NCBI GenBank assembly: GCA_025716815.1
Contig: JAIXMN010000011.1
Coordinates: forward strand, 558,001 to 622,000
Reading direction: 5' to 3'
From: Dichotomocladium elegans
Lineage: Eukaryota > Mucoromycota > Mucoromycetes > Mucorales > Lichtheimiaceae
DNA length: 64,000 bases
Shown here one piece after another: positions 9,675 to 62,786 of this stretch. The notes beneath the pieces were generated by a model. It was not told the DNA's origin, ran no database searches, and saw nothing but the letters and a program-made list of their open reading frames with translations. The position numbers and the translations under genes are program-made. Each line of letters begins with the position of its first letter. The stretch's first letter is position 1.

Positions 9675-12062
9675 ATGCCGTCCACTACCGCTCCCGAGAT
9701 GCTCTCCTTTGATACATGCTGCTGTGGACAGCCCAATTGCCCTCGCTTAAACCACTGGGCCACAATGCTCCATAAACTTGAGACGGATGGCCGTTTGGCT
9801 GCCGGTAAAGGAAGAAACAAGGATTGGGCGGGGGGGGGGAGTAGAAAGGATTAGGGAGGAAACCTCTCACTCTTTTGTTTGTGCGTGTGTATATGTGTGT
9901 TTGTGTGGTTCCCCTTCCCCTTCTGAAGCAAATTTCTTCCTTGCTTTTCTCGTCCTCTTCCTCCACCCCTTGATGGTTTTATTTTTCTATCCTCCTTAAG
10001 AAAGAACCACTGACCTCTTTGAGTCTATATCCAGAAATCGGCCAGAGCTTGCTCCAGAAGCACGAAAAGTACGTTATAGAAACTGACCAGACAAGGAATG
10101 AATTGCAATGCAAGGCAAGGCCCATGATCGTAGCACTCCATCTGTTGCACAACGCATGCACATATATAAAAATATGTGTGTCTCATAGTGATCAACAATA
10201 ACACATTGTACATGTCTGTTGCTGCCATGGCTCTCCTTAGGTGCAAGAGTATCAAGAGCGGATCCACGCGCTTGAGAGGGCGGCAGAACAGTCAGAGTGG
10301 GAGAATCAGCAAGAAGTTGATCAAGACAAGGCGAAGTGGTATTGGAAATGGAAGCGGACACAAACAGTATGTATCGAGACCTCTCATTTCGACAGCCGTG
10401 TAAAAATAACGATATTTTTTTTGTTGGCCAAAAAAAAAAAGACTCTGGATGCGACCGCTGCTGATTTGGATGTGGCAAATACGAAATGTGCGCAGCTTAG
10501 CAATGCCCTAAGAGATCAAGAGGCAGAGGCAGAAAAGCTTGGGATGTACAAGGCCTTGGCGCGTGAATCAAGCACACGTGAAGAATCCCTGCGTACAAAG
10601 GTAAAATCATGCCGCACCATGTCACACGCCCTGTATCACATCGTGCTTAATAATCAAATCTAGCTCGATGAAGCACTACAGGAGATTGAGGCTTTACGCA
10701 AGAATGAAAAGGTGTTGGAGACACGATATAGGCGGATGAAGGAGAAACATGGTGAGTTTGCGGTGGCTGCGAAATAGGGGAGGGTCGTCCGTTGACCAAA
10801 GGGGATATCGTTAGAATCCTTAGTTTCGGCATATGAGCGTTTGGAAACATCTCTTGCCGTAAGACAAGAGAAGCTGATAGCGGCAGCAAAGGCAACAACC
10901 ACGAAGCCAAGAGCGATCTCCAAGCCAAAGGTTAGTGTTACGGGTGGAGACCATTGCCTGAGATGGATGAGACTCACCCCTGTGGCATATGCAAGCATGA
11001 CACGTGTGCTATGCCTAAGATTCCTCCTCCTGCCAAAGACGCAGCATCATCCGACACTGACAACATCACGACATTGACAACAGCACAGGGACGACAGAAA
11101 GAGCGAAAGAATTCCTGGCCCGATGGGACTGTAGCCATGACACATCAACCGCCACCTCAGCTGGTAACATCGATGTCCACACCGGTACCTGCTGCTCCTG
11201 CTGTTGCCACCCACAATAATTCGGTTCACCACCATCATTACCATTACTATGTCCACGCAAAACCTATACAACATCGTCTGCTGCCTCCCCAACAGCAGCA
11301 GCAGCAACCCCAAATGGGTCCTACCAGTGCGATCGAACCCCATGATGAAGAGGTAGGCGACATTCAGAGATAGTCATACAAGAGACCATCCACTCACAAT
11401 TTTAGAAGGGTCTCTTGATGAGTTTGCTGCATACAATGGTCTCTCAGGCACTTGAGCAACTCCGAGCGACAGATATTCTTACCCTGAATCGGCGGCTGGG
11501 CTGCACGTTCGACATTTCGCAAATGTGTCAGCTGAGCAATTCAGCAATTGAAGACATTCTCAGTGAGACTGAGCAATTGGATACCCAGGCTGCTAATGCA
11601 GCTACAGACGAGAAAGCAGCCATCATCAAGCTCTATAAAGAAATGCTCAGTGAAATAGGTCATTTAAGAGTCACACTTAACGATCTCCAAGTAGAATACG
11701 TCAAGAAGATTGAAGAAAAGCGAGTGTTGCTTCTCCAGCAGCAGCAGCAGCAGCAACAGCAACAGCAACAACCTACATCACCCACATTTTCTTGGTTCTT
11801 GTCAAATGTCTTCCACCGACCGACATCCCCTCCCCCTCCAGTTCCCCCTCCACTCTCGCCATCCTCATCGAGGCGACGATTTGACACGCGCAGCATCAGC
11901 AGCGGAAGCTTGTCCCCTACCCCACGAAGATCACGGTCTCGACAACAGCCGCAGCACCAGCCATACGACAGTCGTGCCGGTAGCATTCCCGCGCTATCCG
12001 AACTTGATCTCGACTTGAAAGTCCGTGGTTCTTTATCGACCAGCCTGCTCATGAGCAAATAA
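9675..12062 (+). CDS. Coiled-coil protein with N-terminal Cys motif, function unknown
   Basis: Eight exons are inferred: 9675-9804, 10035-10114, 10241-10366, 10442-10600, 10664-10751, 10815-10930, about 10972-11352 and 11406-12062, giving about 578 residues. The N-terminus has FDTCCCGQPNCPRL, then RLAAEIGQSLLQKHEKY across the first splice junction, then long heptad-type helical sequence (VQEYQERIHALERAAEQ, LDEALQEIEALRKNEK). A second Cys cluster, HPCGICKHDTC, lies near the middle, followed by His-, Gln- and Pro-rich low-complexity sequence and another helical block (ALEQLRATDILTLNRRLGC). The tail is Ser/Arg-rich. The intron at 10115 would start with GC (AAG|gcaagg), but a GT donor at about 10130 is also in frame. 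The intron before exon 7 would be only 32-41 bases, so that junction is uncertain. The architecture suggests a scaffold protein; I do not recognise the family. Confidence 0.75.
11736..11772 (+). repeat. CAG/CAA repeat coding polyglutamine in the coiled-coil gene
   Basis: About twelve Gln codons in a row, after the last helical block of the coiled-coil protein. Confidence 0.95.
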
Positions 12063-12249
12063 GACTTATCCGCCTCATCCACCCAGCATACCTCCGCACC
12101 CGGCCATTATGACCGTCCACCGTACTAAACGCAAATGGCACCAAATTATCAATTGTACAAAATAATCCAACGTGGGCTCCTATTTTGATGTGCGAGCAAT
12201 GGAATACAGGAATTGAAAGGCCACTTGGAATACATACTATCACATCGAT

Positions 12250-13037
12250 TTACATATGATCATGCCAGGTTTCGTGGAGGAATTCGTCATCAGATGAGTC
12301 ATCCGGATCTGAATCTTGGACATCCTCCTCTTCGCGTTTCTTCATGCATTTAAGACATCGTGCCTTCTCCGCGTGTCGTCGTTGATTCTTATGAGTGTTG
12401 TCAACGTGGCAACAAGTTAGAGATACTCACTCCATGCTTTCCCCATGTCTAGTTATTACCTTGGCAAATTGCTCAAGAGGTTTGGTTTTTGTACAAGTCA
12501 TGCAGGTGAGATTGACCGTCTGTTTCGCCGTGCATTGCTTGCAGACCACAGTCTTTTTCTTATTGTTCCAACCAGCAGGGGCGTAAGCTGCGCGAGTAAT
12601 CATAGCACGCCAATATTGAGATATACACATGATCAAACTTCTTCCAACGACCAAAACCTACGGTTGAACGTCGCCTAATATAAAGACACATCAGCCATGC
12701 TGCCCTTCAGATCTCAGGCACGCCTTCTGTCTAGCATTCTCACCTTCTGAACCTGGGTCTTCGAGAATGCATCGATCCGTTTCTCCTATAAAAGCGAATG
12801 GTCAGCAAGGCATCAGGCTAATCGAAAATGATTCATATCACTTGCTTGATTACAGAATACACATTTAAGGGATTTGGGAGCAGGTTGTTGATCTGTGATT
12901 TTTGCAGAGGATAAACGATCAGCAAATAATAACGACCTGCAGTAGAAAGAGATTTTACCATTCGACTTGAAAGTTCCGTGGGGGTCATTCCATGATGTCT
13001 CAAGACGGAATTTTCCAGCGGGACCTTGGCGACTCAT
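12250..13037 (-). CDS. Stc1-domain protein (RNAi-heterochromatin adaptor type)
   Basis: Six exons on the minus strand: 13037-12959, 12892-12846, 12785-12744, 12674-12662, 12587-12460 and 12387-12250, giving 148 residues. The spliced protein shows the Stc1-domain pattern of paired CxxC knuckles with FSK/FAK motifs: KCVFCNQ, then RIDAFSKTQ, then VVCKQC, LTCMTC, KPLEQFAKNQRR and RCLKC. The tail is acidic (DSDPDDSSDDEF). In fission yeast Stc1 links the RNAi effector complex to the Clr4 methyltransferase complex; the same role here is inference. The second intron starts gcaagt, and only this GC donor keeps the frame. Exon 4 is just 13 bases. The gene converges with the coiled-coil gene, 187 bases apart, and diverges from the beta-galactosidase gene. 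Confidence 0.85.
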
Positions 13038-14219
13038 TTCGTATGAACACGGAAGAAGGGGAAAAAAAGCCGGGAAGTTGGAGAATGAACCGAGTAAAGC
13101 ATTGGGGGCGTCCAGGAACCCAGTCACCTCACACAAAGGCTCATTGTTTCAGTGCGCGCTACAGGAACCCCGCTTCGCTTCTTTTTTCGACCAATGCCCG
13201 AGTGTGCTGAATCACATGATTCGATATGATCCCCAGTGAGTGAATGGGGCCGTAAACAGAACTCTTCTTTAAACTGCTCGTGCGGATGGTCGGTTCCCAT
13301 GCATCAGGACACTCACGCACACACTCAAATAAAGATGGGTGGGTGGAGGAGGGACTCCTTGCTGGTTCTCCGCATCCGATTCGGCCAAGTTCCTTTTCGA
13401 GAACGCATCTGCTTATGACCCTTTAGGGATCAAATAAATAAAAGAAGATGCTTAATTTCTCGTAGTCCCACGAAGAGCTTATCCCGAAACTCACTCGGAA
13501 CTTTTTCCAAGTTCCAGGCTTCGAATGTGCGTACGTAAAAAGAGTCGACCGCAGTAGCATGACTCAACCGGCTCGTTCAAGAATGTATACATCCGCGGAT
13601 TTAGGTCCTGGAAAATCGTCACTTTTGTGAACGTCGGCTATGGGGCACTGCAATGTTCACCCATGATAACCAGCAACTACATCTACAGAAAGACGATCAC
13701 CAGGCAGCAGAGCATCTCTCCGTCATGTATACGATAGCTTTCTCATTAGATAGGCATTCTCATAGATATACAGTCTTGCGCATGAAGGCGGGTGAGGCAG
13801 GGAAGAGGAAGAGGTATCCTGTCTATATGATGAAGCCCATAGCATCAATATCTGCGGCCTTTTTTTTTGTCCGGGAAATAGCCTCTCTTTTCTATCGAAA
13901 AACTCTCCGGGTACGACCTACCCGTGGAAAAACTTTGGCAGCCGACCCGGGAGCATTGATAATTTCGAATGCTGCACAGACGTCCTACACTCGATTCGCT
14001 CTGAACAGAGAGTCGCCGACAGTAACCTCAGCTCTAAATGGGCAGCTATAATTTTCCTTGAACCCTTCCTAATCGCACAAACTATAGGTCAGGTGGAGAG
14101 TCTGTGGCCCTGAAAGTGCAAAGCAGTTTCTCATGACGATGTTTGATTAGATAATAGTATCCCTGTATATATACAGAGAGAGAGACAGGGAGAGTCAACC
14201 TTCTTTTTCTCGATATATA
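13038..14219. promoter_or_regulatory. Divergent intergenic region between Stc1 and beta-galactosidase genes
   Basis: About 1.2 kb without a convincing gene. It contains a perfect inverted repeat at 13908-13924 (CGGGTA, five-base spacer, TACCCG), 296 bases before the beta-galactosidase ATG; such CGG-containing palindromes are typical of Zn2Cys6 regulator sites (inference). A TATA-like TATATATA lies at about 14165-14173, followed by a short GA repeat, and a CT-rich leader precedes ATG 14220. Confidence 0.5.
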
Positions 14220-17200
14220 ATGGCTCCCAAAATCTCACTGTCAAGCATCTCGCTGGCTCTGGTGGTCTTAGTATCGATTGTTGGTGCTAGCACGTCTGCT
14301 TCTGCTCCCAGACCTCTTCTATTGGACCAAAGAGATACCAATGGATTAACAGATAAAGTGACCTGGGACAACTACTCGCTGATGGTAGACGGCGAACGCC
14401 TCTTCTTGTTCTCTGGTGAATTTCATGCAAGTGCAGCCCGACATCGGACCTACAAAACATCTCTGTTTTCTAATCAAAGGATCTACATCGTATAGTATTA
14501 TCGTTTGCCCTCGCCGAGTCTCTGGCTCGACATCCTGCAAAAATACAAGGCTATTGGCATGAATGGCGTCTCATTCTACTTTAACTGGGGTTATCATTCT
14601 GCCAAGAAAGGAGTCTATGATTTTGACGGTGTCCGAGACATCACGAAGGCATTTTCTGCTGCGGAGCAAACCGATCTCCATGTTATCACTCGCAGCGGAC
14701 CCTATATAAATGCCGAAGTGGTACGTTGACTATGTACCTAACATTGGGAAAATGGAAAACTTAACCATTGCGCCCCTGACCACCCTCGACAGGATTGCGG
14801 AGGCTTTCCTGGCTGGCTAACTACAATGTACAGCATGGCTAGAAGGAATAATCCAGAAAACAACGAGAACTTTGAAGAGTGAGATTCATACTTTGAGTGT
14901 GCATACCCCCCCTTCTATGAGGTCGAGCCATATTAATTTTTTTTTGGTGCAGGTGGCTCACTCAAATAGACAAATATTTGCACCCCAATCAGATCACCGA
15001 AGGTGGGAAAATCATCCTTAATCAGATCGGTACGTACGGTTTCCTTGCATTCAAATACTCCATCATTCTTGACGTCGGTTAGCATATTAGATAATGAGTA
15101 CAGTCTTAACAGCGAACCTGCTTATCTCGAAGCGATAAAGGCCAAATTCCTCAAAGACGGGATCGTTGTGCCTTCTATTTACAACGATCCTGGACCCAAA
15201 GGACATTTTGTTCACGGGCCCGGCTCGGCAGACCTGTACGGCTGGGACAAATACCCTGCCAACTTTGACTGCAGCAATCCCATGGTGTGGCCCAACAACC
15301 GCAGCACAGACTGGCGCGACTATCACTACCGCAACAATCCCGAGCAGCCCCTCGCACTCTATGAGTTTCAGGGAGGGTCTTTTGATCCTTGGGGTGGTCC
15401 TGGCTACGAGGCCTGTCGGACGATGGTTGACGAGCGCTTTGCAAAGGTGTTTTACAAGAATAACTACGCCCAGGGCGCGACCATCCAGAATTTGTACATG
15501 GCCTACGGTGGCACTTCCTGGGGAGGACTCGCCAAGCCAAGCGTATATACATCATACGATTACGGGTCTCCTATCTCTGAACCTGGCCTGATGACCAGCA
15601 AGGCATATGAAATCAAGCTGCAGGGTAATATATGTGAGGGAAACGTGAGACTTTGGTAATGCAAAATATATGTAATCAACCAATGCAGGTACATTCATCC
15701 ATACGGTCAAACCTTTCTGGACCACCTCTAACTTCACGGTCGTGAATGACAACAGCGAGATCATTCTCGTCGATGGACTCAAGGACGTCAACTCGGACAC
15801 CAAATTCTACATTGCCCAGCACTGGAACACGCCTAGCAATGGACTAGATGAGTAAGTAAGCGGGTGCAAGCGCTCGACCTACCTATACTGGCTTTACTGA
15901 CAATCGCTCGAAGATTTCATATCACCGTGGATACCACGGACGGTACCTTTGAGATCCCTCAAAGCGGCAAACTAGTCCTTAACGGTCGTGATGCCAAGAT
16001 CCTCACTGCGGACTATGCCTTCAACTCCCAGCATCTTGTCTACAGCACAAGCGAGATTTTCACCCATCAGGACATGGGCTCCCACGACGCAATAGTGGTG
16101 TACGGCTACGAAGGAGAGGACGGTGAATTTGTAAGCCGGGTCAAAAACAACAGCAGCGGCAGGAAGATCAAGGTGAAGTCTACAGACAAAAGTGTGCAAC
16201 ATACAGTTGATGCACATGGGTTGTTACGGATTAATTACCGGCACCCGAACGGCACGACACCTATCTATATCAGCGGAACAGGCACCAAGGACCTTCTCGT
16301 ACTAGTTTCGGGCTATGAAAGCGCCCAGCGATGGTGGGCACCCGTTGTCGACGACGCGACTGGTCAGCGCGTGCTGATTCAAGGACCTTATCTCGTTCGC
16401 AGCGCCTCTGTCTCTGGCAACACTGTCCACTTCAAGGGCGACATTGACGAAACCACCGCTATCGAAGTCGTCGTTCCGACAACGGTAAAACGTTTTACCT
16501 GGAACGGCAGGGACCTCAAGTTAAAACCAAACGACTATGGTACCTGGACCGGCTCTCTGACGTTCATCGAACCGGAAATGACCATACCTGACCTGGGTGA
16601 GGTTGAATGGAACTACAGCGAAGCTTCTCCCGAGATTCAGCCAGATTTTGATCATTCGAACTGGATCACTGCTACAAAGCAAAAGACAAACTCAATCACA
16701 CTCCCGCAAAGTTGGCCCATTCTCTACGCGGACGATTATGGTACATAGAGGATGAGAGGGTCGGGGAGAATGATGGTTCAATTCCACGGTCTCATTTGCT
16801 CGGCTACTAGGCTTCCACACTGGCTGCATTTGGTTCCGTGGCACCTTCAACGGCTCTTCACAAATCACTGGATTTAACCTTACAGCTGTCTCCGGTGCCG
16901 CCTCGGCATGGGTCGTCTGGCTAAACGGCGAATATCTCGGTGGCTTTGACGTTGGAAATCAGGCGTTCACTAACCTAAACGGCACACTTCTCAAAGCCGA
17001 AGGTGAGAATGTTATCTCCCTGTTGCTCTGGACGACGGGTCACGAGGATGACTTTAGTTCAGACGACGGCTTCAAGGCCGCCCGCGGCTTCAGCTTCGCC
17101 ACGCTCCTTGGTCCCTTGAACCAGACGCTCTGGTCTATCGACTGGAAGATTCAAGGGAACCTTGGCGGCGAAGACCTCGCCGATCCTGTTCGTGGTCCAT

Positions 17201-17738
17201 ATAATGAGGGTGGTCTTTACGGTGAGCGCATGGGCTGGCATCTGCCTGACTTCCCGGACAACGACTGGGAGACCACCCGCATCCCGGAGTCGCAAAGCCG
17301 CACCGGCGTGTCCTGGTACCGCACCACCGTGGACGTTCATATCCCAACGGGTTATGAGGTTCCTATTAGCATCAACATTGAGGACACAACAAAGGCGCGA
17401 TACCGCGCATTAATCTTTGTCAATGGATGGCAGTTTGGTCGTTATGGTATAGTGGTGGGGCGCAAGGTTTGGAAATCAAGCAAGTTATTCACCCTCTTTC
17501 GATCGCTATTACTGTAGCCAATGATCTAGGACCCCAAACGCAGTTCTATATTCCTGCAGGTATCTTGAACACGCAAGGGAAAAATACATTGGCAGTGGCC
17601 GTAGTCCCTCTTGACAAGAATGCGACACTCGGAAAAATAACTATGACGCCCTACAAGGTCCTTGAATCAGCTATTCCACCCGTTGAGCTTGTCATGTCCC
17701 CCGGCTATAGCGTACGTGATATTGGAATTTCAAAATAA
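14220..17738 (+). CDS. Secreted beta-galactosidase, glycoside hydrolase family 35
   Basis: Nine exons: 14220-14426, 14496-14720, 14793-14878, 14953-15029, 15091-15624, 15689-15851, 15914-16740, 16811-17446 and 17518-17738, giving about 991 residues, the usual length for fungal LacA-type enzymes. A hydrophobic signal peptide (LALVVLVSIVGAS) opens the protein. The GH35 core follows: SGEFH|YYRLP across intron 1, RSGPYINAE, DCGGFPGWLT, the acid/base Glu in DNEY (about residue 201), the nucleophile Glu in YEFQGGSFDPWGG (about 290) and MAYGGTSWGG. The beta-gal accessory and jelly-roll domains follow (GFHTGCIWFRG, GVSWYRTTVDV, GWQFGRY). N-glycosylation sequons are frequent. It hydrolyses terminal beta-galactosides outside the cell. 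Intron 1 starts gcaagt and is fixed by the GEFH-Y/W-RLP family motif. Confidence 0.96.
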
Positions 17739-17989
17739 ATAAAAAAAATTGGCCATATGCGGGCAGCCTTGTCGGCGAATGAAAATAATGGGGGGAGGCC
17801 CTGGGAAAATGGTGTATATCTTCACGTCCCCAGTGCGCAGGCATTGTTTCAGCCCTTTTTTCGTCCTTTTGAAGAAGGTATGTGATATCCATCCATCCAT
17901 CCATCCATCCATCCATGGAGTAGTATCCATAGGATCCTGTATACAATTCGGCTCGTTTTCTTATATTCTTTGATTGAATAGTAACCACC
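17739..17989 (+). promoter_or_regulatory. Compact promoter region of the EF-1alpha gene
   Basis: Only 251 bases separate the beta-galactosidase stop from the EF-1alpha start. The stretch holds a run of seven CCAT units at about 17888-17916, CT-rich tracts (CAGCCCTTTTTTCGTCC) and a good start context (accaccATGG). All terminator and promoter functions for two genes must fit here. Confidence 0.6.
17888..17916. repeat. (CCAT)n tetranucleotide repeat
   Basis: Seven consecutive CCAT units lie about 75 bases before the EF-1alpha start codon. Confidence 0.9.
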
Positions 17990-19423
17990 ATGGGTAAGGA
18001 AAAGACTCACGTTAACGTTGTCGTCATTGGTCACGTCGATTCTGTAAGTAATCCTCGTAGTCCGTGAAAATTTGAATGATGTACTCACTCTTTCCTACAG
18101 GGCAAGTCCACCACCACTGGTCACTTGATCTACAAGTGCGGTGGTATCGACAAGCGTACCATTGAGAAGTTCGAGAAGGAAGCTGCCGAACTCGGTAAGG
18201 GTTCCTTCAAGTACGCCTGGGTTCTTGACAAGCTCAAGGCCGAGCGTGAGCGTGGTATCACCATCGATATCGCCTTGTGGAAGTTCGAGACTCCCAAGTA
18301 CTTCGTCACTGTCATTGATGCCCCCGGCCATCGTGATTTCATCAAGAACATGATTACCGGTACCTCCCAGGCCGATTGCGGTATCCTCATCATCGCTGCC
18401 GGTACTGGTGAGTTCGAGGCTGGTATCTCCAAGGATGGTCAGACCCGTGAGCACGCTCTTCTTGCTTTCACCCTTGGTGTCCGCCAGTTGATCGTTGCCA
18501 TCAACAAGATGGACTCGACCAAGTACTCCGAGGCCCGTTACAACGAAATCGTCAAGGAAGTCTCTGGCTTCATCAAGAAGATCGGTTTCAACCCCAAGTC
18601 TGTTCCCTTCGTCCCCATCTCTGGCTGGAACGGTGATAACATGTTGGAGGAGTCCTCCAACATGCCCTGGTTCAAGGGATGGAACAAGGAGACCAAGGCT
18701 GGTTCCAAGACTGGCAAGACTCTTCTTGAGGCTATCGATGCCATTGAGCCCCCTGTCCGTCCCTCGGACAAGCCCCTCCGTCTTCCCCTCCAGGATGTCT
18801 ACAAGATCGGTGGTATTGGTACCGTCCCTGTCGGTCGTGTCGAGACTGGTGTCATCAAGGCTGGTATGATCGTTACCTTCGCCCCTGCCAACGTCACCAC
18901 TGAAGTCAAGTCCGTCGAAATGCACCACGAGCAGCTCGCTGAGGGTGTTCCCGGTGACAACGTTGGTTTCAACGTCAAGAACGTTTCCGTCAAGGATATC
19001 CGCCGTGGTAACGTCTGCTCTGACTCCAAGAACGACCCCGCCAAGGAGGCTGGCTCTTTCACCGCCCAGGTCATCGTGTTGAACCACCCTGGTCAGATCG
19101 GCGCTGGCTACTCCCCTGTCTTGGATTGCCACACCGCTCACATTGCCTGCAAGTTCGCTGAGCTTCTCGAGAAGATCGATCGTCGTTCCGGTAAGAAGCT
19201 TGAGGACTCTCCCAAGTTCATCAAGTCCGGTGACTCCGCCATCGTCAAGATGATTCCCTCCAAGCCCATGTGCGTTGAGTCCTACACCGAGTACCCCCCT
19301 CTTGGTCGTTTCGCCGTCCGTGATATGCGCCAGACCGTTGCTGTCGGTGTCATCAAGTCCGTTGAGAAGGTTGAGAAGGGTGGCAAGGTCACCAAGGCTG
19401 CCCAGAAGGCCGGCAAGAAATAA
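17990..19423 (+). CDS. tef1: Translation elongation factor EF-1alpha (eEF1A)
   Basis: Two exons, 17990-18043 and 18101-19423, give 458 residues, the standard fungal length. The protein delivers aminoacyl-tRNA to the ribosome as a GTPase. Visible motifs are the P-loop GHVDSGKST, which the single intron splits between Ser and Gly, [12 protein letters not shown] and the C-terminal domain ending in KAAQKAGKK. The coding sequence has strong codon bias towards C-ending codons (GGTAAG, GTCACC, AAGGCC), unlike its neighbours, as expected of a highly expressed gene. This bias also creates a long spurious open frame on the other strand. Confidence 0.98.
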
Positions 19424-20570
19424 GCATGCCCTGTCTATTATATATAAATATATATACAAATCGTGCTTAAAAAGAGCTAGTATTCTGCTTCTTTTGTTCG
19501 AATCAAATAAAAAACAAAAATACCCCGATGGTGGGTAAAGAAAAGAGGACTGTATAGATGAGATGTGTCTGAGGGAAGTAAATCGCCCTGACAATTTGAA
19601 ATATCAATCCGGACAAAAACCTATTCACACCCTCGAAAATAGAGAGTTAAAAACTTTGAAGGGTCTACTCTGGATATTTTCCAAGATAAAAAATTTCGTG
19701 AATGACATAAAACAATGTCAAAATAATGACGCATAGAATCGCATAAAGTTTTCGTGTCAATTGGTAAAATGATTTCGGGATCCACGGATTGGAACACGTT
19801 AGACAACAAAAAACACCACCTCTTCCCGATATCCTTTAACTTACCTCCAAGAGCAGTACGTATGTCTTGGTGATAACCAGGACGGAAGATATGGAGGAGG
19901 CTAGCAGCGAAAGGGGGGAGGGACCAGTGGCGGCAGCGAAAAGGTGCAGAAGGAGCGGAAGGGATGTCCCGGATCTCCTCTTTTCATAGCTCATCAAGCA
20001 CTGGTACGGTTGGTTAATCTACAAAGAACAGCGGATGTTAGATTGCAATAAAAGAATCATAGTGATCATACCGAATAAGACCATGAAAGCGAGGGTCAGG
20101 ATGTAGTTGATGAAGAAAGCGGATTGCTCAACTGTCCATTATTTATAGGAAATCAAGGATCATCCTATAGTCCTTTTGATACACGACTTTCATCACTTAG
20201 TGATGCTTTAAGTGGTATAGAGCTTGAAACGCCTCGTTATGGGCCTTTCCATTTCCGCGGCGGAAAAAATTCAATGCAGAGGATAATAAAATTTCAGAAA
20301 CATTGCCAAACTCGCCAAAAAGCAAAGGGTGTATTAACATGAAGCATTGACCTTACGGATTATGAAGGCTCATCAGCCATGAAGACAGACATGGTTTGAA
20401 AAATCTGAAACACAACGTTTCTAAAATTTGGTTAACACAATCGTTGGAGATGGTCCTTAAATACCGATACTTTGTACCCCTTCAACATCTACAGCTACTT
20501 ACAACTCACATTCAAAAAGTAGCAATGGTTAGATATCAGAAACCGAAATATTGAGTTATCCAGTACAGAC
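19424..20570. other. Intergenic region, A/T-rich, no gene seen
   Basis: 3' flank of the EF-1alpha gene (TATATATAAATATATATAC at about 19439-19457) running into sequence next to the decayed transposon. A short plus-strand frame at 20124-20342 has no recognised features. One end of the transposon may lie here, but I could not identify a terminal inverted repeat. Confidence 0.4.
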
Positions 20571-21014
20571 ATGTCTTCACCCGCTACATCAACTATGAGT
20601 ATCTCCAGCATTCGCGATGCCGGTGATCGGGATCCTTTCGGTTTAAGTGTAGTATTCAAACCATCGGCTGGCGAAAAGAGCACCGTGAGCGGTTACTTGA
20701 GAGAGACGGGATAAACGACGGCGTGGGCGATTCCGTGGCCAGTTTAATAAAGGTAGCTAGATGCAAATGTCAAATGATCTTTATGAGATAGGCCAAGGTT
20801 CCCTCGGTGGTGGTGATGCATTGCTATGAGCTTTTCAAGACTGTTCCCAGGTGGAGTAGCCAGTTGCAAATGCGCTCTGCGAAGGCGAGCGAGCGTTGCC
20901 TGCGTAGAGGTTGTTGCCGTTCCGGCGACACTCTCTGAAGAGGACGTCACTTTTGAAGACAATGAGGTCATAAAAAAATTCCTCACTCGTAGGAACGAAG
21001 TCGACAAAGAATAA
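20571..21014 (+). pseudogene. Second, companion gene of the Harbinger-like element, broken
   Basis: It starts with ATG at 20571 (MSSPATSTMSISSIRDAGDR). A frameshift near 20685 leads to RERLLERDGINDGVGDSVAS, and an intron-like gap (gtagct...gccaag, about 20751-20796) leads to VPSVVVMHCYELFKTVPRWS. After another frame change it ends in SEEDVTFEDNEVIKKFLTRR. The text is coding-like throughout but cannot be read in one frame. Its position, tail to tail with the transposase, suggests the accessory protein of the element; that assignment is inference. Confidence 0.5.
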
Positions 21015-21030
21015 ACCCTTTTTTTTTTTA

Positions 21031-22997: not shown

Positions 22998-23858
22998 TCA
23001 GATCGCGCAAGCCGTTAAGGCTGCCCATAGCAAAGATACCAAGGTATAAGGCGTGAGCGAGCGCTGCGTGAGTGCGCCCGAGCTCCACATGCTCTTTTTT
23101 GATCCGGTCGTGCTTGCGGAAGGAGAAGGAGTGATGGCCGTGTTCGCGGCGGCAATGGTTATGGGGATTGAGATATTATGATTCGTAGCTTGATTGGTGT
23201 AGACGACCTAAATTAACCACTTTATATGAGAACAAGGAGAGTATGGAGGGAAAGATGAATTACTTGCATTGTAATAGCCTGGGGCAGTATTGGATGGAAT
23301 ATCGTACTACATAGTATGCCGAGAGTGCTACATAAGTCACCTGTGCCTATCCAACACTGTCTGTAGCATAAAGAGACAGACAAACAGAGAGGGGAAGACA
23401 TACACACACACACACACATACATACATTTTCCTGATGTTCGTAAACGGTCTGGCCTCCCTGATTGACTTGCTCGCTGAACCCTTTGGCAATATTGGCATT
23501 CTGTACCATCACGATACTGTTCGTGGCGTTTTGGGTATCTTGGAGAATGATGGAGAGCTGGAGGGCTTTTTTCCGAATGAGAAGGGTTTGTTTGAGTTAG
23601 GTCAACCAGCCAGCCAGTGGGTTTGCCAAACCCCTTTCTGCTTCTGAATAACGATTACTTACTACTCGCGGTGCTTTCAGCGGATATTCTGTAAACGAGC
23701 GGAAGCTTTTGGCCGGTCACATACAGTGAATTGGGCCCCGGTTTGGAGACGTTATAGTACCGAGCGTCGTCATGGGCTTGCTGCTGCTGCTGTTGCTGGG
23801 CTTCTGCTCCGCGGAGACAGATAGCTATGCACATTAGAATAAGAAAGGAGAGCCACAT
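22998..23858 (-). CDS. Small secreted, probably GPI-anchored wall protein (Kre9/Knh1-like region)
   Basis: Four exons: 23858-23663, 23565-23426, 23306-23268 and 23207-22998, giving 194 residues. The first exon codes a signal peptide (MWLSFLILMCIAICLRGAEA), a short glutamine run and PGPNSLYVTGQKLPLVYRI, the kind of opening strand found in Kre9/Knh1-type Ser/Thr-rich wall proteins. Later blocks are TLQLSIILQDTQNATNS, YDIPSNTAPGYYN|VVYTNQ and HNISIPITI. The C-terminus has a Ser/Thr linker and a hydrophobic end (TPYTLVSLLWAALTACAI) suiting GPI attachment. Secretion is strongly supported; a beta-glucan or wall role is inference. The third intron starts gcaagt. The second intron contains a (GT)n run and the first intron ends in an adenine-rich acceptor. 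Confidence 0.82.
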
Positions 23859-25905: not shown

Positions 25906-26183
25906 TAGTTGGTATAGAAAACCTCATTTGATATATTAAAATCATATTGTATGTTATCGCTTCCGTAACATTTTCGAGTGTGATAATATATGGGTACTCG
26001 CAATGCGAGAGGTGAAGTTCAACATAGAGATTGGCGTACATGGCGGATAGGCGTAAATGTTGCAGCATATATGGCGTACCATGCCTTGAAGAAAATTGCA
26101 GAAAAATGGATTGCTTTAGTATGACCTTGTATATACAGTATTCTTGCTTTTTTTTTTATATGTCATGTGCCACTGATATTTAG

Positions 26184-31319: not shown

Positions 31320-31355
<36 letters not shown>

Positions 31356-45865: not shown

Positions 45866-45890
45866 GAGAGAGAGAGAGAGAGAGAGAAGA
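45866..45890. repeat. (GA)n microsatellite
   Basis: A run of GA units in the 6.2 kb region without recognised genes. Confidence 0.9.
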
Positions 45891-53423: not shown

Positions 53424-54553
53424 ATGGCCCCACCATCATCTCAGACTTTGCAAGAACGTGCGTTGGCACTCGTCAAAGTGAGTGAAAACTATGTCAACCT
53501 ATTGCCTTCGCTGATGGAACTGCACAACCTTATCGTGATGGAGTCCTTGTGCACGGCATATCACTCACGCCTACCTCACCTATATATTATATAGACTCTT
53601 CAGTTCGCTTGGTTCGCCGGCCACGTACTCACGTTGCTCGGTTCAGCATTCCATTTCCTCTCGGTTGTCACATTACGCTCGGCGTCCAAGCCATATAGCA
53701 TCGCTTTCCTGGGCGCTATCGTCTCATATGGTGTCGTGATTTATAAGACGCACGGTGTAAGCGAAGAAAAAAAAACGCGTAATCGCAACGTAGTTTAATC
53801 TTCTCACACTACGGCCCTCCATCAGGTACCCAAACTCAATGCCGCCTATGCGCAGCGTTTGGTAATGGACGAGAATATTCAGTATTTCCTGTTGGCCTTG
53901 TACTGGTTTTTCTCGTATCCAATTACAGGTACTTAGTAGGGATGGAGGATGGAGTGGAAAATGGTGACTAATACGCATATATCCCACGTATCCGCATGGG
54001 CGATTAATAGTGGCTCTCTTGCCTTATGCCACGTTCTCCACGTTTCACGCCCTCGGGTACTTCCGTTCAAACATCATCCCTACTGTTTTCCCTGCCCCAC
54101 CCTCATCTGGTGCTTCATCATCGAACGCACCTACCTCATGGCAGGTTAAGACCCAGCAGCAGATCAAGGGATGGACGGACAAGAATTATGAATCTGCGAT
54201 GCGTTTTGTGGCTCAGATCGAGGTTGTGGGTATCATGGGCAGATTACTTCTTGGTATCTTCAAGTAAGAATGGGCACACGTGGAGTGAATGGGATTCTTT
54301 TTTAAATCCTTCCCCCGCCTCTTTTTGCATTAGGCTTCAGATCATGGCCATCTTCTTGTACGCCCAGTTCCTTCGATTCCGCTACCATCTTTCGCCTTAC
54401 ACTCGCCAGGCTTTCTCATCGTTGAAGCATACGCTGGATCACTACAGCGCTGATCCCCGTGTTCCTCCCGCTGTGCGACAGGTTTATTTGACAGTGCAGG
54501 GCATGGTCACGCGCTTTGGGCAGGCTGTTGTTCAGCAGCCTGGTCAGCGTTAA
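53424..54553 (+). CDS. TMEM33/Pom33/Tts1-family ER and nuclear-envelope membrane protein
   Basis: Five ex­ons, 53424-53477, 53595-53756, 53826-53928, 54011-54263 and 54334-54553, give 263 residues, normal for the family. Membrane segments are visible at FAWFAGHVLTLLGSAFHFLS, YSIAFLGAIVSYGVVIY, YFLLALYWFFSYPI, and a last hydrophobic pair from VGIMGRLLLGIFKLQIMA through IFLYAQFLRFRY. A soluble helix ending VTRFGQAVVQQPGQR follows. Relatives (yeast Pom33/Per33, fission yeast Tts1, animal TMEM33) shape ER tubules and assist nuclear-pore distribution. The same role is likely by family. It converges with the exonuclease-like gene, 145 bases between stops. Confidence 0.9.
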
Positions 54554-54698
54554 AAACACAGCACATTACAAATAGCTAAATCAGCATAGTCGTATAGTGT
54601 AGCCTTCGCGAAACCTTTCGATAAGGGTTTAATGATATATTTTTTTTTAAAAAAAGAGAAAGCATATATCGATCTCTTCCCCCCCCCGCCCTTCCTCT

Positions 54699-55854
54699 TC
54701 AATCGTTGGTCTCGTTGAGCTTTGCAACGAGTGCCATAAGAAGTACCATGGTATAATGGGCATCATTGCCTAGGCAGCAAACGCAATTCTCGTTAGTTGA
54801 AGAAAGCGGGTGTTCCCAAACATATCCACTTTACCAGCATTGTGCAGGTACCAATGATCAATGTCCAGCAGGGTGAGAGTTCTTCCGAGGGAGGGTGGAT
54901 TATGCAAGTTGTCGATGGATGCTCCATAGATAATGTCGGTATTGAGGGTTGCGACGATCGCGCTCTGCTGGATATCGAGGACGTCTTGTTGGCCCGGTGG
55001 GCCTGGCCACATGAACTTCGCCTTCTTGAGATACATGAGATCGCTGTCCATGCCGTGGCCGACAAGAACAAATCCGCCGTCGCGCTGAACGCACCAGTCC
55101 AGGTCCTTCTTGAGTTCCGCGAGTGCCTGGTCGAGAGTACACCACACAGAGGTGCCGAAACAGAAACGGAGTTTCATGTCATCGACGTATCTCCCGTTCC
55201 TGAGATGCCTGTAGCTGTTGATCAGATAGTGTTGATCCTTGTAGCGGTTTGTCTTGCTGTCGTAGAGCGTCCATCCGATCTCCAGCAAGACGCTGTGGTC
55301 CTGCTCCCATGCTTCAATGTCAATGCTGCACAACACATGCTGGCCAGATTGCGTGAGCTCTCGCGCCATTCGCCAGCTTTTCTTGGCGTTCAGAAGCCGT
55401 TCCCTTTGGGCATTGAGTTTCTTCACGCTCTTGAAGAGATTCTGGAACTTCCTCTTCTCCTGGACCTCGAATGCCACTGCATCCTTGTACACCGCAAGCG
55501 GCACCGGCATCTCCGGTAAAGGCAGACGGGAATCAATGCGCTGCATCAAGTCGGCCAGCATCGAATGCAAATGCCCGCATGTCTCTTCCGAGATTACCAC
55601 CTGGAAGACGCCGGTGCTCGTGTTGAGGGCTAAACAATAAAAATGAAGATATCGCGTTTAGAAGAGGAAGCATTTCCCCTTGCTCGTAAACCGAACTCGC
55701 ATTTACCTTTATAAAGTGTAATGGTCGCCCCACGAGAGAAAAGACGATTCGGATCAAAGAAGGCACACAGAGCCTTCTTGGCTAATTCGCCTTGGGATGC
55801 ATATTGCGTGGTCCAGGTCTCTTGAATTTCACGCCAGCCAAAAAAGGATTCCAT
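54699..55854 (-). CDS. DEDDh 3'-5' exonuclease-fold protein, Gfd2/YDR514C-like
   Basis: Three exons, 55854-55707, 55629-54835 and 54769-54699, give 337 residues. The ribonuclease-H-type exonuclease motifs are in order: ExoI in SIDIEAWEQ (Asp-x-Glu), a HYLINSYRHLRNG block, ExoII in VGHGMDSDLMYL, then DIDHWYLHNAG|NDAHYT, where His-x4-Asp completes the DEDDh set. The final Asp comes only from exon 3, so the unspliced frame would lack it. Fungal relatives (Gfd2/YDR514C) are poorly characterised; catalytic competence is inferred from the retained acids. The N-terminal part (WTTQYASQGELAKKALCAFF) is of unknown role. It diverges from the SAM gene over 444 bases. Confidence 0.87.
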
Positions 55855-56298
55855 TTTGGCTGAGTTGGCATTCGTCTTTTCTCTCTCGCTTTATTTTTCT
55901 GCATCGGGGACATGTTCTTTCCTCCCTTTCAAAGGCAGGCAAGCAATCGAATGGTATTTAAATATAGGACCATGCGCTGCCCTCTTATAATAGAACTAGT
56001 TGCACCTTTTCCCACCCAAGATAACTGTTTTCTTGTGAACAACTCGATATAATGGTAGTAGCATTGGGCATTGTCTAATACACAATTGCGTGGTGGGAGA
56101 AAAAATTTATGACGTCAAAAATTTTGATAAGAAATTTTTCTTCGCTGTCTCGGGGGGAACGGGGGACGACGGGGCGGAGAGAGCGGGATTTTTGCTGCAA
56201 ATTCGTCTGCGAGAGGTTCGTGCGTTTTGCTTTATATAGAGGCCCGACGTAAAAGGCACATTTGCGTTCTTCTTTAAAACACTGCATTTTCTCCTGCT
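55855..56298. promoter_or_regulatory. Divergent promoter region, exonuclease-like and SAM genes
   Basis: 444 bases shared by two genes transcribed away from each other. It contains a TGACGTCA palindrome core at about 56110-56116 (ATGACGTCAAAA), a CRE/ATF-type site, a G/C-rich block near 56150-56180 and CTTTATATAGAGG at about 56229-56241 as a TATA-like element for the SAM gene. Site function is inference. Confidence 0.55.
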
Positions 56299-56647
56299 AT
56301 GCTACCTACACTCCTCGAGTTCCTCCGTCATATTCAATTGGATCAGTATCATCATGATTTTTGCACTGCAGGCGCCACTGACAATGACCTACCCCAGCTG
56401 GTCGCCTTCGACGATGCCGAGCTAAACGACATCATCAGCGCCGTCCATATGTTGCCTTTTCACGCCATCAAATTCAAGAAAGCACTTCGGGACCTACGTG
56501 TACGGCCATCGATTGGCGCTCAGAACGAGCATCATGCGCTTCCGGTCCTTCCTAGCTTGCAACATATGCTAGGCACTGTTGAAGATGTAAAAAAGATACT
56601 AATGGAGCAAGTCGATCGAGGATTGGGTGTATCTGACAGCTCTCTAT

Positions 56648-56697
<50 letters not shown>

Positions 56698-57289
56698 GCC
56701 GTTCTTTTCATGGTCTGGTTTTAGTAACAGCAGTAATAAGGATCTTTCTTCTCGAGAAGTCGTCATCTCACATGCGAAGATCTATGGCAAGCGAAGCACG
56801 CGGTCGCTGACGAGTTACGAAGAAGCCATCAACGCCGCAGCGGTACAACTCGCTCTCCAGGACCCTTCCCTCGTTGTTAACAAGGGCAAGCTCTTTGAGC
56901 GTGCCAAGCACGCACTTCTTGCGAATGGATACCAATATAAGCGTGGCAAAAGCCGGTCAAAGCTCACCAGACAGTTGCCGTACCACCACCCCCAAACGAA
57001 AAGGAACACGGAGTGGCCAAAGATCAAGCGGCGGTCGGATGCCCTACAAAAGTCCGTTGAGCGTCTGCAGAAAATTGACGTACTCCAAAACCGAGTGGGG
57101 GTCCTGGCTGCGTCGTCCGATCCAGAGGCGATCTCGGAGACAAAGGAGCTCATGAAGGAACTCAGCAAGCTCAAGGCCAAGGAGCGGAAGCACCAGTGGT
57201 ATGAGCGTCGCAAGGCAGAGAGGTCTGATAGCGGCTTCTCTGAATGTGGCAGTTCAGAAGAAACAGAAGAAGGTTGGAGTAATGATTGA
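56299..57289 (+). CDS. SAM-domain protein resembling NAB co-regulators
   Basis: Two exons, 56299-56606 and 56725-57289, give about 290 residues. Exon 1 is a SAM-like domain (LLEFLRHIQLDQYHHDF, TDNDLPQLVAFDDAELN, FHAIKFKKALRDLR) similar in layout to the NCD1 region of animal NAB proteins. Exon 2 starts with REVVISHAKIYGKRSTRSLT and YEEAINAAAVQLALQDP, then a basic stretch and a long charged helix (SETKELMKELSKLKAKERKH). The only donor that joins the two frames is gcaagt at 56607, a GC-AG intron. That intron contains an (AC)n(AT)n microsatellite. Protein interaction is likely; a transcriptional role is inference. Confidence 0.78.
56650..56697. repeat. (AC)n-(AT)n compound microsatellite inside an intron
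   Basis: About 15 AC units followed by about 9 AT units, wholly within the intron of the SAM-domain gene, ending 27 bases before its acceptor. Confidence 0.95.
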
Positions 57290-57485
57290 CCATCCGTGTT
57301 TGTCTCTTCACCATCGCTTATCGATCGTCCACAAAGGTTCTACCGTAACATGTCCTTCTCACAGACTGTCTACTGCATGACTTGCATCTATTCCAATGGC
57401 TTGGTGAGTTCATTTTTGGCCTTACGGGTCTGTGTGTATGTATATGAATAAAATCGGTGTACATAAGATACAAAGTTAAAATAGC

Positions 57486-59994
57486 CTAAAGAATAATACA
57501 GCGGCGCGGGAAGCGGCGCTGTTTACCGCGCTTCCGTCGCCTAGGACCGGCTCCCCCTATTGCCTCCACCGGTGGCACTGCGGCGGGTGCAAGGTGCGGT
57601 TGTGTCCCACCAAAGGCCCGGTCATGTCGTTGGATCCTTTCAGAAGCTTTTGCATTTCCTAGTCTGGCTGCCTTCTGATACATTCGAAGGGATCGGTCAA
57701 AGTCCCTAATTGTTCCAAACCCTTTCTCGTAAAACCATCTAATATCACTGTCAGCAGCCTACCTTATACAACCCCACACTGGTTTTCCAGCCCTTTCCCT
57801 TTGTCATACCCCAACATGAAAATAGCATCAGCCAAGTTTAGGTCAGCCGCGCGCTGACACCATTGAAATGAAGCATCTTCGTCGAGACGATTTTCATCGA
57901 ACCAGTGGGAAACATCTCTTCTTCGTCGCTCCTGTTCATCACTGCCACCTGGACCATGGATACCGCCGTTGTAAAGACGACACAGGCCTAGCATGGCATG
58001 CGGATCGCCTGCCTGAGCCGCAAGGTTGTAGTAGTGGAAGCTTGTAGAAAGATTCATTTCGCTGCCATACAGGCCATGCTCGTAAATATCAGCTATCTGG
58101 ACCTGAGCCTTGACATGGCCCATATTGGCCGCTGCCTCAAACATGTCCCGTGCTGCCTCACGTCCACCGTACTGCTGTACCAGCTCAAGAGGAATATCAG
58201 CCAGTGGATAGATATTGAGGAGGGCTTGGCCAAGGACAAAGAGTGGCTCGGGGTACGTGGCTTCAGCCGCTCTCTCAGCAGCTTGATGAAGAAGCGCCAG
58301 GCCCTTTCGTAAATTTTGGCGACAGCCTAGGTGGCCGTGGATGTATGCCTGGGCTAGACGCTAATAGAGATACTGTAAGTACTCCGGAATTTTGGAGACT
58401 GGATCGTACTTACAAACAGAGAGGGTGCGTGACCGCTTGCAGCAGCATCGTTATAGTACTGAAGGAGACTTATCGGATCCCCGGTGTTGTTGCGCTCCAT
58501 ATGCTGGGCCAAGGCATATTTCGACGCCGGGAATTCCCCACTACTCGCCGCAATTGAGTGGAGTCGGTTGATCTTTTCAGAGTTACGTATGAAGCCGTAT
58601 TTTTGCGTCTCCATCCAGGTCGCTTGCAAATAAGCTGCTTCAGCCACACCTTCCTTGGCAAGACGCTTAATACATCGAATTCCCTCCATGGTGAGCGCTG
58701 TTTTCTTGTCTAAGGATGAAACATATTTAACGACACAGACGAGAGATTGGGAGAAGTAAAGCGACATACCTTCATCTTCAGGATTTTTATACAACGATGC
58801 GATATCCAAGAGATATTTTGCAAACGCGACCTGGACTTTGGGATCTCCTGTCTTTTCAGCCGCGGCTATGTATTTTCTGAGTGCATCGGGATCGTTCGTT
58901 AGACTATACGATGCCTTGCTGTATTTCGATTGCATCGCATGAGCAATGGTGGCTGACTTGTTTTTGTTCCCATATAAGTATCAATATGACCGCAATAGAG
59001 GCAAATCTTTTCTATTACCATGACACTTCCGCTGGCTGTCGAAGAAACGGAACGATTGCCACACAGCGAGCCGATTGTTGGACTCTCTGTTCTGAGCCGC
59101 GATGATTCGGCTGGAGGCAGTCCGCTCGACTGACAAGGGGCGCGGCGTATGTTATCTCCCTCATTATCTTGCTCTGGGTCGTCCTTAATGCTGTTGTTAC
59201 TGTTGTTTTTGCTGTCGCTGCTATTGCTGCTGCTGCTGCTATTACTGTTGTTTTTGTTGTTGTTGTTGTGATCGTCGTTGTTGTTATTTTTGCTGCTGCT
59301 ACTACTACTTCTATTATTTTTATTTTTGTTGCTAAGCACAGGCAGATCATCCGTTTCTGGTGGGGCAGATACCCGGCCCTGTTGTTGGACCCCAGCCATG
59401 TGTGGCGGTGACCAGGTATGTTTTTCTTCCGAGTTTTCAACAACTGTCTTTGGGGCCAGCACATCATCATTCAGCGTATTGGATTTTGATGGTGATGTAG
59501 TATCTGAAGCGGAGGCAGAGTCGTGCGAGTCTGATTGTCGGAAAGGCGGCGATAGGAACTGTTGTTGCGTTTTTTCACTGACTCTCTGTGGCATTTCCTC
59601 CCCATTTTCCGACGATGAGGATGACGAGGGGCCTTTGACATCAGGATTGACAACCCGTAGTGTATAGCTGTTCTTGGTATAATCCATATCGTCCCCATCA
59701 TCATCATCATCGCCCTCATCATTGCTATAATAATTGCTCATGGATTGCCTTGGATTCGCTGATGACCTATACATATTTCTGGCACCAGACTGTTCTCGAA
59801 AGTAGCCTTCCATGGTATGATACCCTGGGTCTGATGAGTTTTTTTTATCATGATATATAGCGCGTGCAACAACACCCCGTCCTTGGCGTACCTCTGGGGT
59901 CAGCTGGCTCTCCAGAGATGACTTCAATAGCTGAGCCGTTGGATGGTAGCGTATGTGAGCGAAAATGTCGTGTAGAATAGCGATGATGCTGCAT
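57486..59994 (-). CDS. Skt5/Chs4-like chitin synthase regulator with Sel1 repeats and CaaX box
   Basis: Six exons: 59994-59892, 59830-59019, 58956-58770, 58709-58414, 58360-57810 and 57738-57486, giving about 733 residues. The N-terminal third is low-complexity (Ser/Asn tracts from a trinucleotide repeat near 59200-59335). The C-terminal part has Sel1/TPR-like repeats: YIAAAEKTGDPKVQVAFAKY, RLAKEGVAEAAYLQATW, RLAQAYIHGHLGCRQN, ADIYEHGLYGSEMNLS, YYNLAAQAGDPHAMLGLCRL, LGWFYEKGFGTIRDFDRSL and MYQKAARLGNAKA. The tail is polybasic and ends CIIL, a CaaX prenylation box with Leu (geranylgeranyl type). Yeast Skt5/Chs4 activates chitin synthase III at the bud neck and is also prenylated. The start ATG at 59994 follows a pyrimidine-rich leader and is likely but not certain. 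Confidence 0.9.
59200..59335 (-). repeat. Trinucleotide-rich tract coding Asn/Ser in the Skt5-like gene
   Basis: Mixed AAC/AAT/AGC codons on the minus strand give alternating Asn and Ser runs between the N-terminal region and the Sel1 repeats. Confidence 0.9.
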
Positions 59995-60832
59995 ATTGGT
60001 TGAAGAAAAAGAAAAAGAAAAAAGAGAAGTGCTCGCTTTATGGGAAATGAAACAGGGTGGGCTGAATTGGTCGAGCGTATGTGTAACGCTAACTCTGCAA
60101 CCCTCCTGTGATATGAGTGTGCTCTCCCCTTGCCAGATCCAGAGTTGACTAAAATCATGCTCTTTTGGATCAGTGCAGCAACATTCAGAGAAACATAGCA
60201 AGGTCAACACATGACGCATAGGCCAGGAACCGGGCTGACTTTCCAACGAATCCCGGTCATAGAGAAGAGACCCAATAGAAACTTTGTTGTCTTTGATGAC
60301 TTTGGAACGCCGATCCCCTTTATGCAGAGATCGTCCCAAGTCATACCTCTTCATCTTTTTCAAAAGACGGAACTTGAATTGTTTAAATCTCCAGGAAGTG
60401 CCCTTAAAAAGGGACCAGCCCTATGGAAACATCGGTACGTTAGAACAGTTAGGGTTATCATTCACCGAAAATGCCTGACGTCCGCTTTTGCATGACCAAA
60501 AGGTCTGGTTAGGATCTTTGATACTCTAACCTCCAGAAAACTCACTTATCAGACCGCATTTTAAATTACCATGGAAACATTCCTGTTCAACTTCGTTACT
60601 CGATACGATGCTCTGAAAGGAAGCAGGCTGCATGGGATTCATTGTATTCAAGCTCTCCATTCAGGCACAAAAAAAAGATACGCACACGCACACATACATA
60701 TGCACACATACACACAGACACACACAAACTCACACACTCACACTCATATATATATATATATATTCATGCACACATAGGTGGGAGAAATATGAGAACACAT
60801 GCCAAGTGGCTTTCATTGTTGCGATGTTGGTT
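59995..60832. other. Intergenic region with microsatellites
   Basis: About 840 bases. A pyrimidine tract (minus strand, near 60001-60025) precedes the Skt5-like start. Open frames at 60211-60495 (+) and 60363-59848 (-) overlap each other and show no domain. (AC)n and (TA)n runs lie at about 60680-60765. Confidence 0.45.
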
Positions 60833-61216
60833 TTAATAACGGTGGGAATATTCGGGCGGAGGAGAGTCAGGTTGCTGGTATTTGTCTAGAGTCGGCGATC
60901 GTTGAAATGGTAACCGTTCGTATCCCTTCAAATTGCACGTCTCCTGTTCATTTGCCAGTGCGAGTCGTCTACGCATGTCTTTGACACTCCTGACAATGTA
61001 CCACGTCAACAGGATTACCACAAAGAGGGTAGCAATGATGATCAATAGCAGTTGCCAGTTGCGTTGCAGCCAGGTCTGTCGCTGGATATGCGTGGCATTA
61101 TCGCTATCACTGAACCCGTAATTATTGACGGCTGACTGGGCGAACACGGAAGGATAAGAGCCCGCAAGAACGAGAGTTGTTAAAAGTTGGGTTGCTGAAG
61201 GAGTGTATAGTTTCAT
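60833..61216 (-). CDS. Small single-pass membrane protein with signal peptide and PPxY motif
   Basis: A single exon of 127 residues with ATG at 61216. A signal peptide (LLTTLVLAGSYPSVFAQ) is followed by a short outer region with one N-glycosylation sequon (DNATH), a strong membrane segment (QLLLIIIATLFVVILLTWYI) and a basic cytoplasmic tail (RSVKDMRRRLALANEQE). The tail ends in PPPEYSHRY: the PPxY motif is the standard binding site for WW domains of Rsp5/Nedd4 ubiquitin ligases. The layout, short ectodomain, membrane span and PPxY tail, suits a ligase adaptor or an endocytosed cargo; this is inference. No close family was recognised. Confidence 0.78.
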   Translation of the reverse strand: MKLYTPSATQLLTTLVLAGSYPSVFAQSAVNNYGFSDSDNATHIQRQTWLQRNWQLLLIIIATLFVVILLTWYIVRSVKDMRRRLALANEQETCNLKGYERLPFQRSPTLDKYQQPDSPPPEYSHRY

Positions 61217-61459
61217 CTTTTATAGTAGAGAAGGGGAAGGGGGAAAGAAGAGAGAAAGAGAGAGAGAGAAGACGAGAGACGGAGGAAGAGAGTCGACTAG
61301 TACTTTTTTCTGCAGAGCATTTCCTACCACTTCAGTTCAGCCAAAAGCCTTCTGGCACGTAAGATGACCCAGGTAAAAGACCCCGTGTTTTTCATATTGC
61401 CCCGATAGTTAAAGAGAAAGAAATGTCAACAAGTTCATAAAAATAGATTGGTAAGGTTA
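61217..61459. other. Short intergenic stretch with (GA)n tract
   Basis: 243 bases between two minus-strand genes, containing GA-rich sequence at 61226-61290, the leader of the membrane-protein gene. Confidence 0.5.
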
Positions 61460-62786
61460 TTAATTGAGTTGCTTTTTCCGTTCCTGCACCTCATTTAAAA
61501 GCGGAACGGAGTCCATCGAGCCTTCACGCTGCACTGCTATGGATGATGCAATATTAGCTTCTTCAAGCGCATGCTGAACCCGTGTAAAATAATCTTCATT
61601 TTGTGCTCGGACAAACGCCGCCAAAAAGAAACCCTAAAAGCATACAAATGAGCATTTAATGGGTCTTGCTTTAACTGATCTGCATCATCACTTGCCACAA
61701 ATGTATCACCAGCACCTGTCGTGTCTTTGACCTTGACCTTTTGAGCAGGTACTATGAAGTCGCGATCCTTGACCTTTCCATCTCTGAACTTGGCCACCAC
61801 GCCCTTGCCGCCCAGCGTCAGTACCATCCCCTGCATGGTTGGAAACTTCGCCATCACTTTTCCGACCAGTTCAAGCTCCTCAGCCTCCACCTTTTCGTCC
61901 GTGATTTGCTCATAGAGCGATTTGGCCTCAGTCTCATTGACGATCAGAATCGACACCTTATCAAAAGGGAACTCCTTGATGATATTGGGCGTCATAGGTG
62001 CAGGATTGAAAAGCACTGACAGGCCCTTGTCAGCAGCAAGACGCATGATGTCGCCTCCGTGGCTGATCTCGTTCTGCAGGACGACCCAGTCGCCCTTGCC
62101 AAAGTCCTTGAGCACCTCAGCTGCGTCCTCAGGCACATACTTTGCATTGGTGCCTGGAAACAAGACGATACAATTCTCTCCAGTTTCGCTGCACACCTGG
62201 ATGAATGCACGTCCATTGCCCTGAAATATCAATTTAGTCATCACGTCTTCTTTGTCCTATCTCTCCCTTACCACGTTCTCTGAGATTTTGGTGTAGGTCA
62301 TATCTACGCCACGCTCCTCCATGTAATTCTTGACCTATAATAGACATATCATTGAGTCCAGCCTTGCGTATCTGAAATCACCGCCTTATGATTGAACTTA
62401 CCCAAGCTGCATCATATCCAATGAGTCCGGCGTGATATACATGCGCTTTCGCCTAACGAATCATAAAAGATCATTGGGAATGAATAAACGCGAGCGCCAA
62501 GACACGATGGTATACTCTGCTTACCCTGGCCAGAGCGGCTGACTGGTTGGCGCCTTTTTGGTCATTTCTCGTCAGTGAGAAGCAGAAGTTTCGGACGACA
62601 CCCCATATACACACACAGACACCCCGCTTCTGTTCTTCCTCCGCCTCGGAGAAGTCCCATACCTTTACCACCGGCTCGTTCAAAAAAACCGGTGGCCGAG
62701 AGCGTCTCGCCCGGCTGAACAATATGGGGAACAGGGAATGTCTGGTCGAGATTGACAGAGCCGTAGTTAAGAATCTTGCCCACCAT
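61460..62786 (-). CDS. Ribokinase (PfkB family)
   Basis: Six exons: 62786-62663, 62553-62525, 62452-62402, 62334-62272, 62220-61696 and 61633-61460, giving 321 residues, a normal length. It phosphorylates ribose to ribose-5-phosphate with ATP. Motifs: NYGSVNLDQTFPVPHIVQPG, the substrate-site GGKGANQSAALAR across introns 1 and 2, HAGLIGYDAAW, GNGRAFIQV, NPAPM, LTLGGKG and the catalytic-site DTTGAGDTFV|GFFLAAFV. The last intron starts gcaagt directly after Val and is fixed by the conserved GDTFVGFF text; without splicing the protein would lose its C-terminal ATP-site helix. The second exon is only 29 bases. It diverges from the quinone oxidoreductase gene. Confidence 0.96.

Follow-up and report, generated by a model that had tools for sequence, protein, structure and literature searches.

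Does Dichotomocladium elegans, a fungus of the Mucorales, begin an unusually large share of its introns with GC rather than GT? The question is raised by a stretch of 64,000 nucleotides of its 39.4-Mb genome (contig JAIXMN010000011.1, positions 558001-622000; hereafter the window), in which a first-pass annotation had rebuilt about 63 introns by hand and assigned GC donors to six of them, proposing a relaxed donor rule compensated by perfect pairing of the remaining donor bases to U1. All six GC strings can be read directly from the window, at 10115, 14427 and 56607 on the forward strand and at 12845, 23267 and 61695 on the reverse strand. Our analysis suggests that such sites probably belong to ordinary U2-type introns carrying C in place of T at position +2 of the donor, which would occur throughout the genome and account for about 6% of introns. 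GC-AG introns are of a known kind, and it is their rate that is perhaps high for a fungus.

GC donors in the window

As judged from the continuity of the encoded proteins, most of these GC donors are fixed. A GC start and an AG end are forced in this way at five of the six window sites: 10115, 12845, 14427 and 61695 are well supported, 23267 is weakly so, and the sixth, 56607, is unsupported. Three of the junctions had been taken as settled by text conserved in the respective protein families, and in these the GC donor is borne out. In the GH35 beta-galactosidase gene (14220-17738, forward strand), the intron at 14427..14495 (cat/gcaagt, with the slash marking the exon-intron boundary) was chosen by our gene finder, and the GC-spliced protein scores 279.7 bits against the GH35 family of Pfam, versus 251.6 bits for the best model restricted to GT. 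The difference is larger for the pfkB/ribokinase-type gene (61460-62786, reverse strand), whose intron at 61634..61695 (gtg/gcaagt), likewise chosen by the gene finder, gives 131.0 bits against PfkB, compared with 82.2 for the best GT-only model. In the Stc1-domain gene (12250-13037, reverse strand), splicing of the intron at 12786..12845 (caa/gcaagt) from the GC donor yields a domain score of 72.9 bits, versus 65.9 with 12860, the sole in-frame GT donor, and only the GC-spliced form retains the first CxxC of the domain. Another GT donor considered for this intron, 12862, yields a stop.

The fourth well-supported case lies in a gene for a coiled-coil protein on the forward strand (start codon at 9675, stop placed by the gene finder at 12062), whose first intron, according to homologue alignment, ends at 10034. 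When the following GC-AG intron (10115..10240, aag/gcaagg) is removed, the predicted protein aligns without a gap at this junction to three homologues, from Lichtheimia, Fennellomyces and Zychaea, while the seven in-frame GT alternatives give products that are 14 to 33 residues shorter.

GC-AG introns across the genome

The small, self-trained gene finder was run on the window, on six arbitrarily chosen 10-kb stretches (our random pieces) and on two further loci, and all 15 non-GT dinucleotides were penalised alike (0.03). Under these equal penalties it returned 124 GT donors, seven GC donors, all of them GCAAGT, and between none and two of each other dinucleotide. When each run permitted a single non-GT dinucleotide, GC was picked eight times for a gain of about 45 in total score, whereas the others were picked 0 to 3 times and the best of them, CG, gained about 26.

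A second and stronger sample, outside the window, consisted of Ras-family genes, in which protein conservation suffices to settle most junctions: 32 of 52 gene clusters, hand-listed from 149 exon matches, entered a spliced alignment against a profile derived from those same genes, with the 15 alternatives again penalised alike (0.02). Among their 96 introns, which seem to include some doubtful GT calls, 90 start with GT, six with GC and none with any other dinucleotide; with no dinucleotide preference at all the numbers are 85 GT, six GC and nine others spread over six dinucleotides. Among the 15 non-GT dinucleotides, the excess is specific to GC in these alignments and gene models. For four of the six Ras cases, the intron that a paralogue carries at that codon and in that phase starts with GT, and therefore GT and GC interchange.

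The six arbitrary pieces contributed 64 GT donors and four score-supported GC donors, which together with the Ras set makes 10 GC-AG introns in 164 for the DNA outside the window (6.1%; 95% confidence interval 3.0-10.9%). This share is clearly above the mean published for 130 fungal genomes, 1.009% (P = 8e-6; PMC7072748). Two genes carry a pair of such introns each. In the chitin synthase gene at 8097-9775 of locus L013 the two jointly bring the score to 266.1 versus 248.5 bits, and in a gene for an RNB-type ribonuclease the scores are 29.2 versus 19.2 bits for Rrp44_CSD1 and 76.1 versus 65.0 bits for OB_Dis3. Two further candidates were left out of the count. One, a random-piece candidate in L013 (AGC/GCACACGG) from a gene scoring 12, was set aside as probably false and would be the sole GC donor lacking AAG; the other, in L016 at 4856 on the reverse strand (aag/GCAAGTTG), was chosen solely in the run with all dinucleotides.

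Within the window itself the share is 5/50 by our own count, or 5/63 by the intron count of the first-pass annotation. The former value is too high, because two of the five genes, those with donors 10115 and 12845, were called incompletely and the 50 lack most of their GT introns. The excess largely holds and is genome-wide, but the share is nearer 6% than the roughly 10% put forward earlier, which was somewhat high.

Donor context

In fungal U2-type GC-AG introns the remaining donor text is strong; such introns were reportedly treated by Rep et al. in 2006. Strong text at +3 to +6 is also what we found within this genome. AAG occupies +3 to +5 in all 15 supported GC donors versus 69 of 199 GT donors (Fisher P = 3.5e-7), and AAGT occupies +3 to +6 in 12/15 (GCAAGT) versus 33/199 (Fisher P = 5.7e-7). 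Over the seven positions outside the dinucleotide, matches to U1 average 5.3 in GC donors and 3.9 in GT donors (P = 2e-7), and where +6 is not T, at three GC sites, the exon ends in AAG each time. Compensation by good pairing elsewhere in the donor is supported, but this pairing is strong, whereas perfect pairing had been proposed.

Viewed the other way, C is present at +2 in 15 of the 84 donors with the AAG context and in none of the 130 without it. Assuming mutation-drift balance at intronic base composition, the rough scaled selection against C would be 1.3 in the AAG context and 3.5 or more elsewhere. U12-type introns were considered and rejected: their donor text resembles RTATCCTT, a rule quoted in PMC2846911, and all 15 supported donors read GCAAG.

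For the window and for the random pieces the donor context is not independent evidence, because the donor matrix aided the choices of the gene finder there. In the Ras set it is independent, as seen in alignments with a flat context. With GT and GC set equal, these recover the six GC sites and one GCTGAA besides. Giving all 16 dinucleotides equal weight again recovers the six, now with one GCGCTC, alongside 76 GT donors and 16 others.

Splicing machinery

Three copies of the U1 gene were found, with 41 of 785 candidates scored, and all three contain atacttacctgag and have a normal 5' end; none of these copies is a dedicated variant that would pair with C at +2. Four U6 copies were found, and the two that were read both have a normal acagaga box. 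The U6 genes occur in pairs, one at C68:1032973-1041002, with opposite orientations and about 8 kb between its members, and one at C50:177521-202641, with the same orientation and about 25 kb.

With respect to protein factors, SNRNP27 is present with the stretch YRQYM, which presumably contains the residue matching M141 of human SNRNP27K, and the genome has a match to a METTL16-type domain. A occupies +4 in 119 of the 199 GT donors. In yeasts, factors of the SNRNP27K and METTL16 types go together with a preference for A at +4 (PMC10581693). For U1-C, a genome search with the zinc finger PF06220 and a human U1-C N-terminus gave no match; the search had no positive control and shows nothing, and the gene is perhaps split by introns.

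Discussion

Taken together, these findings point toward ordinary U2-type splicing that tolerates C at +2 in strong sites as the best explanation, because the U1 genes found and the U6 genes read look normal. In such a model, a normal U1 would accept the site despite the mismatch at +2, since the other positions pair well, and the AAG text could help the hand-over to the ACAGA box of U6. Selection against C would be weak in the AAG context, and therefore mutation and drift could maintain a standing share of GC donors.

A first alternative is a change to the spliceosome of this lineage, through a U1 variant, U1-C, Prp8, a Luc7 or a U6 factor; C at +2 would then be read nearly as well as T, and the high share would be a footprint of this change. 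A share that is high for a fungus, and a C in roughly one of every six donors with the AAG context, would agree with it. The U1 copies found have no altered 5' end, however, and the U6 genes read are normal; in addition, none of the donors lacking AAG has GC, and therefore recognition is not freely relaxed. We consider a changed spliceosome quite unlikely. Nor does a chance cluster in a genome with about 1% GC-AG introns account well for the data: the numbers from the window are small (5 of 50 to 63), but the sample outside the window departs from that mean by itself, which makes this reading very improbable.

Two other readings are scarcely credible. High genomic G+C could drive GC donors, a link reported for some algae, the most GC-rich ones (PMC3033335), but the sampled pieces here have 45-52% G+C and the window 46.7%, next to a fungal average of 47.1% (PMC7072748). 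The GC calls and their context might alike be an artefact of our models, produced by a donor matrix whose training sites were rich in AAG. The gene finder did use that matrix for the window and for the random pieces, yet the flat-context Ras alignments with GT and GC equal return the same AAG sites and the Pfam score tests are independent of the matrix.

Several observations nevertheless weigh against tolerance of C at +2 in about 6% of ordinary U2-type introns, beginning with two of the window donors. The probable GC-AG intron at 23208..23267 (reverse strand, aat/gcaagt) belongs to a gene (22998-23858) whose product is a small protein of the secreted type, and has weak support: its donor was picked by the gene finder, in a gene scoring 12, and the GC form matches DUF4625 with 21.4 bits, below the cut-off of 27, although there is no match without the GC donor. 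The forward-strand donor at 56607, in the disputed intron region 56587..56724, is not supported by our comparison, because several GT donors keep the frame (56545, 56578, 56587, 56611, 56627 and 56629), the junction falls in a linker that is poorly conserved in the homologue alignment, and a deposited D. elegans protein (P0124, itself a predicted model) fits the GT donor 56587 (gtaaaa), with an intron at 56587-56698. This protein is identical to the window locus around 56607 except at the intron.

The same holds for parts of the genome-wide sample. In the Ras set, a flat context combined with the penalty of 0.02 returns just three of the six GC sites, and the sites of L022 and L029 gain merely 3.6 and 2.0. 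In the one-at-a-time trials, the other dinucleotides were also picked, each of them between 0 and 3 times by the gene finder and between 1 and 3 times in the Ras set, where their gains were 1-39 versus 67 for GC; therefore one GC call, or even two, may be false. A lower true share, close to the 3.2% reported for Phycomyces, is excluded only by a small margin (P = 0.04), and the support for GC splicing comes from DNA and protein sequence.

Comparison with known systems places the tolerance of C at +2 in context. The introns described here have the GC...AG ends and the strong donor text of the fungal U2-type GC-AG introns, at a share of about 6% versus the mean of 1.009%. In human fungal pathogens the share reaches up to 2.97% (PMC6176087). 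U2-type GC-AG introns are also present in other Mucoromycota, where they are supported by expressed sequence tags: 446 of about 13,950 supported U2-type introns in Phycomyces blakesleeanus (3.2%) and 71 of about 5,591 in Rhizopus oryzae (1.3%) (PMC2846911), a single GC-AG intron having been noted in Rhizopus elsewhere (PMC1973085). A raised share is thus already on record for a related fungus, and our estimate is about twice that for Phycomyces, a marginally significant difference. Outside the fungi, the nematode Globodera rostochiensis likewise combines a raised share (3.46%) with moderate G+C and a donor consensus with AAGT (PMC4901422), but it is an animal, its share is lower and its introns are backed by RNA-seq, whereas ours are sequence-based. 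The algae Aureococcus and Micromonas pusilla reach 39.6% and 22.2%, but in genomes of 66-70% G+C (PMC3033335), while the G+C here is ordinary. We found no paper on GC-AG introns that names Mucoromycota or Mortierella in the literature, and no fungal share above about 6% in the portions of it that we covered, supplements aside.

The practical weight of these introns lies mainly in correct gene prediction. Gene callers that allow only GT plausibly break such genes and, given the share, would mis-splice many genes in this organism. In protein searches, the D. elegans chitin synthase was not among the best 120 of 2,769 matches, and its coiled-coil protein was not among the three matches listed for it; these missing proteins may fit broken gene models, and other causes, such as length limits of the search, are possible. 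Two other gene models of the window can be recorded here. The gene around 56607 (56299-57289) has NAB co-repressor-like domains (NCD2 and a weak SAM_NCD1), and the splicing of P0124 at GT 56587 is a third reading of the intron in its linker. At 1435-8229, a stop-free frame of 2264 codons encodes a DOCK-family protein with DOCK_N, C2 and the DHR-2 lobes.

A fungus with ordinary base composition and about 6% GC-AG introns would be a handy natural case in which to ask what governs how far C is tolerated at +2; the same case could show whether this tolerance depends on the class of donors that pair with U6 at +3 to +5. In this regard, one could speculate that in Dichotomocladium, and perhaps in its family, the U of GU has become nearly dispensable in donors of that class (AAG at +3 to +5, about one sixth of which have C), because a spliceosomal protein, and not U1 RNA, has come to recognise +2 less strictly in this lineage. 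We regard this as unlikely.

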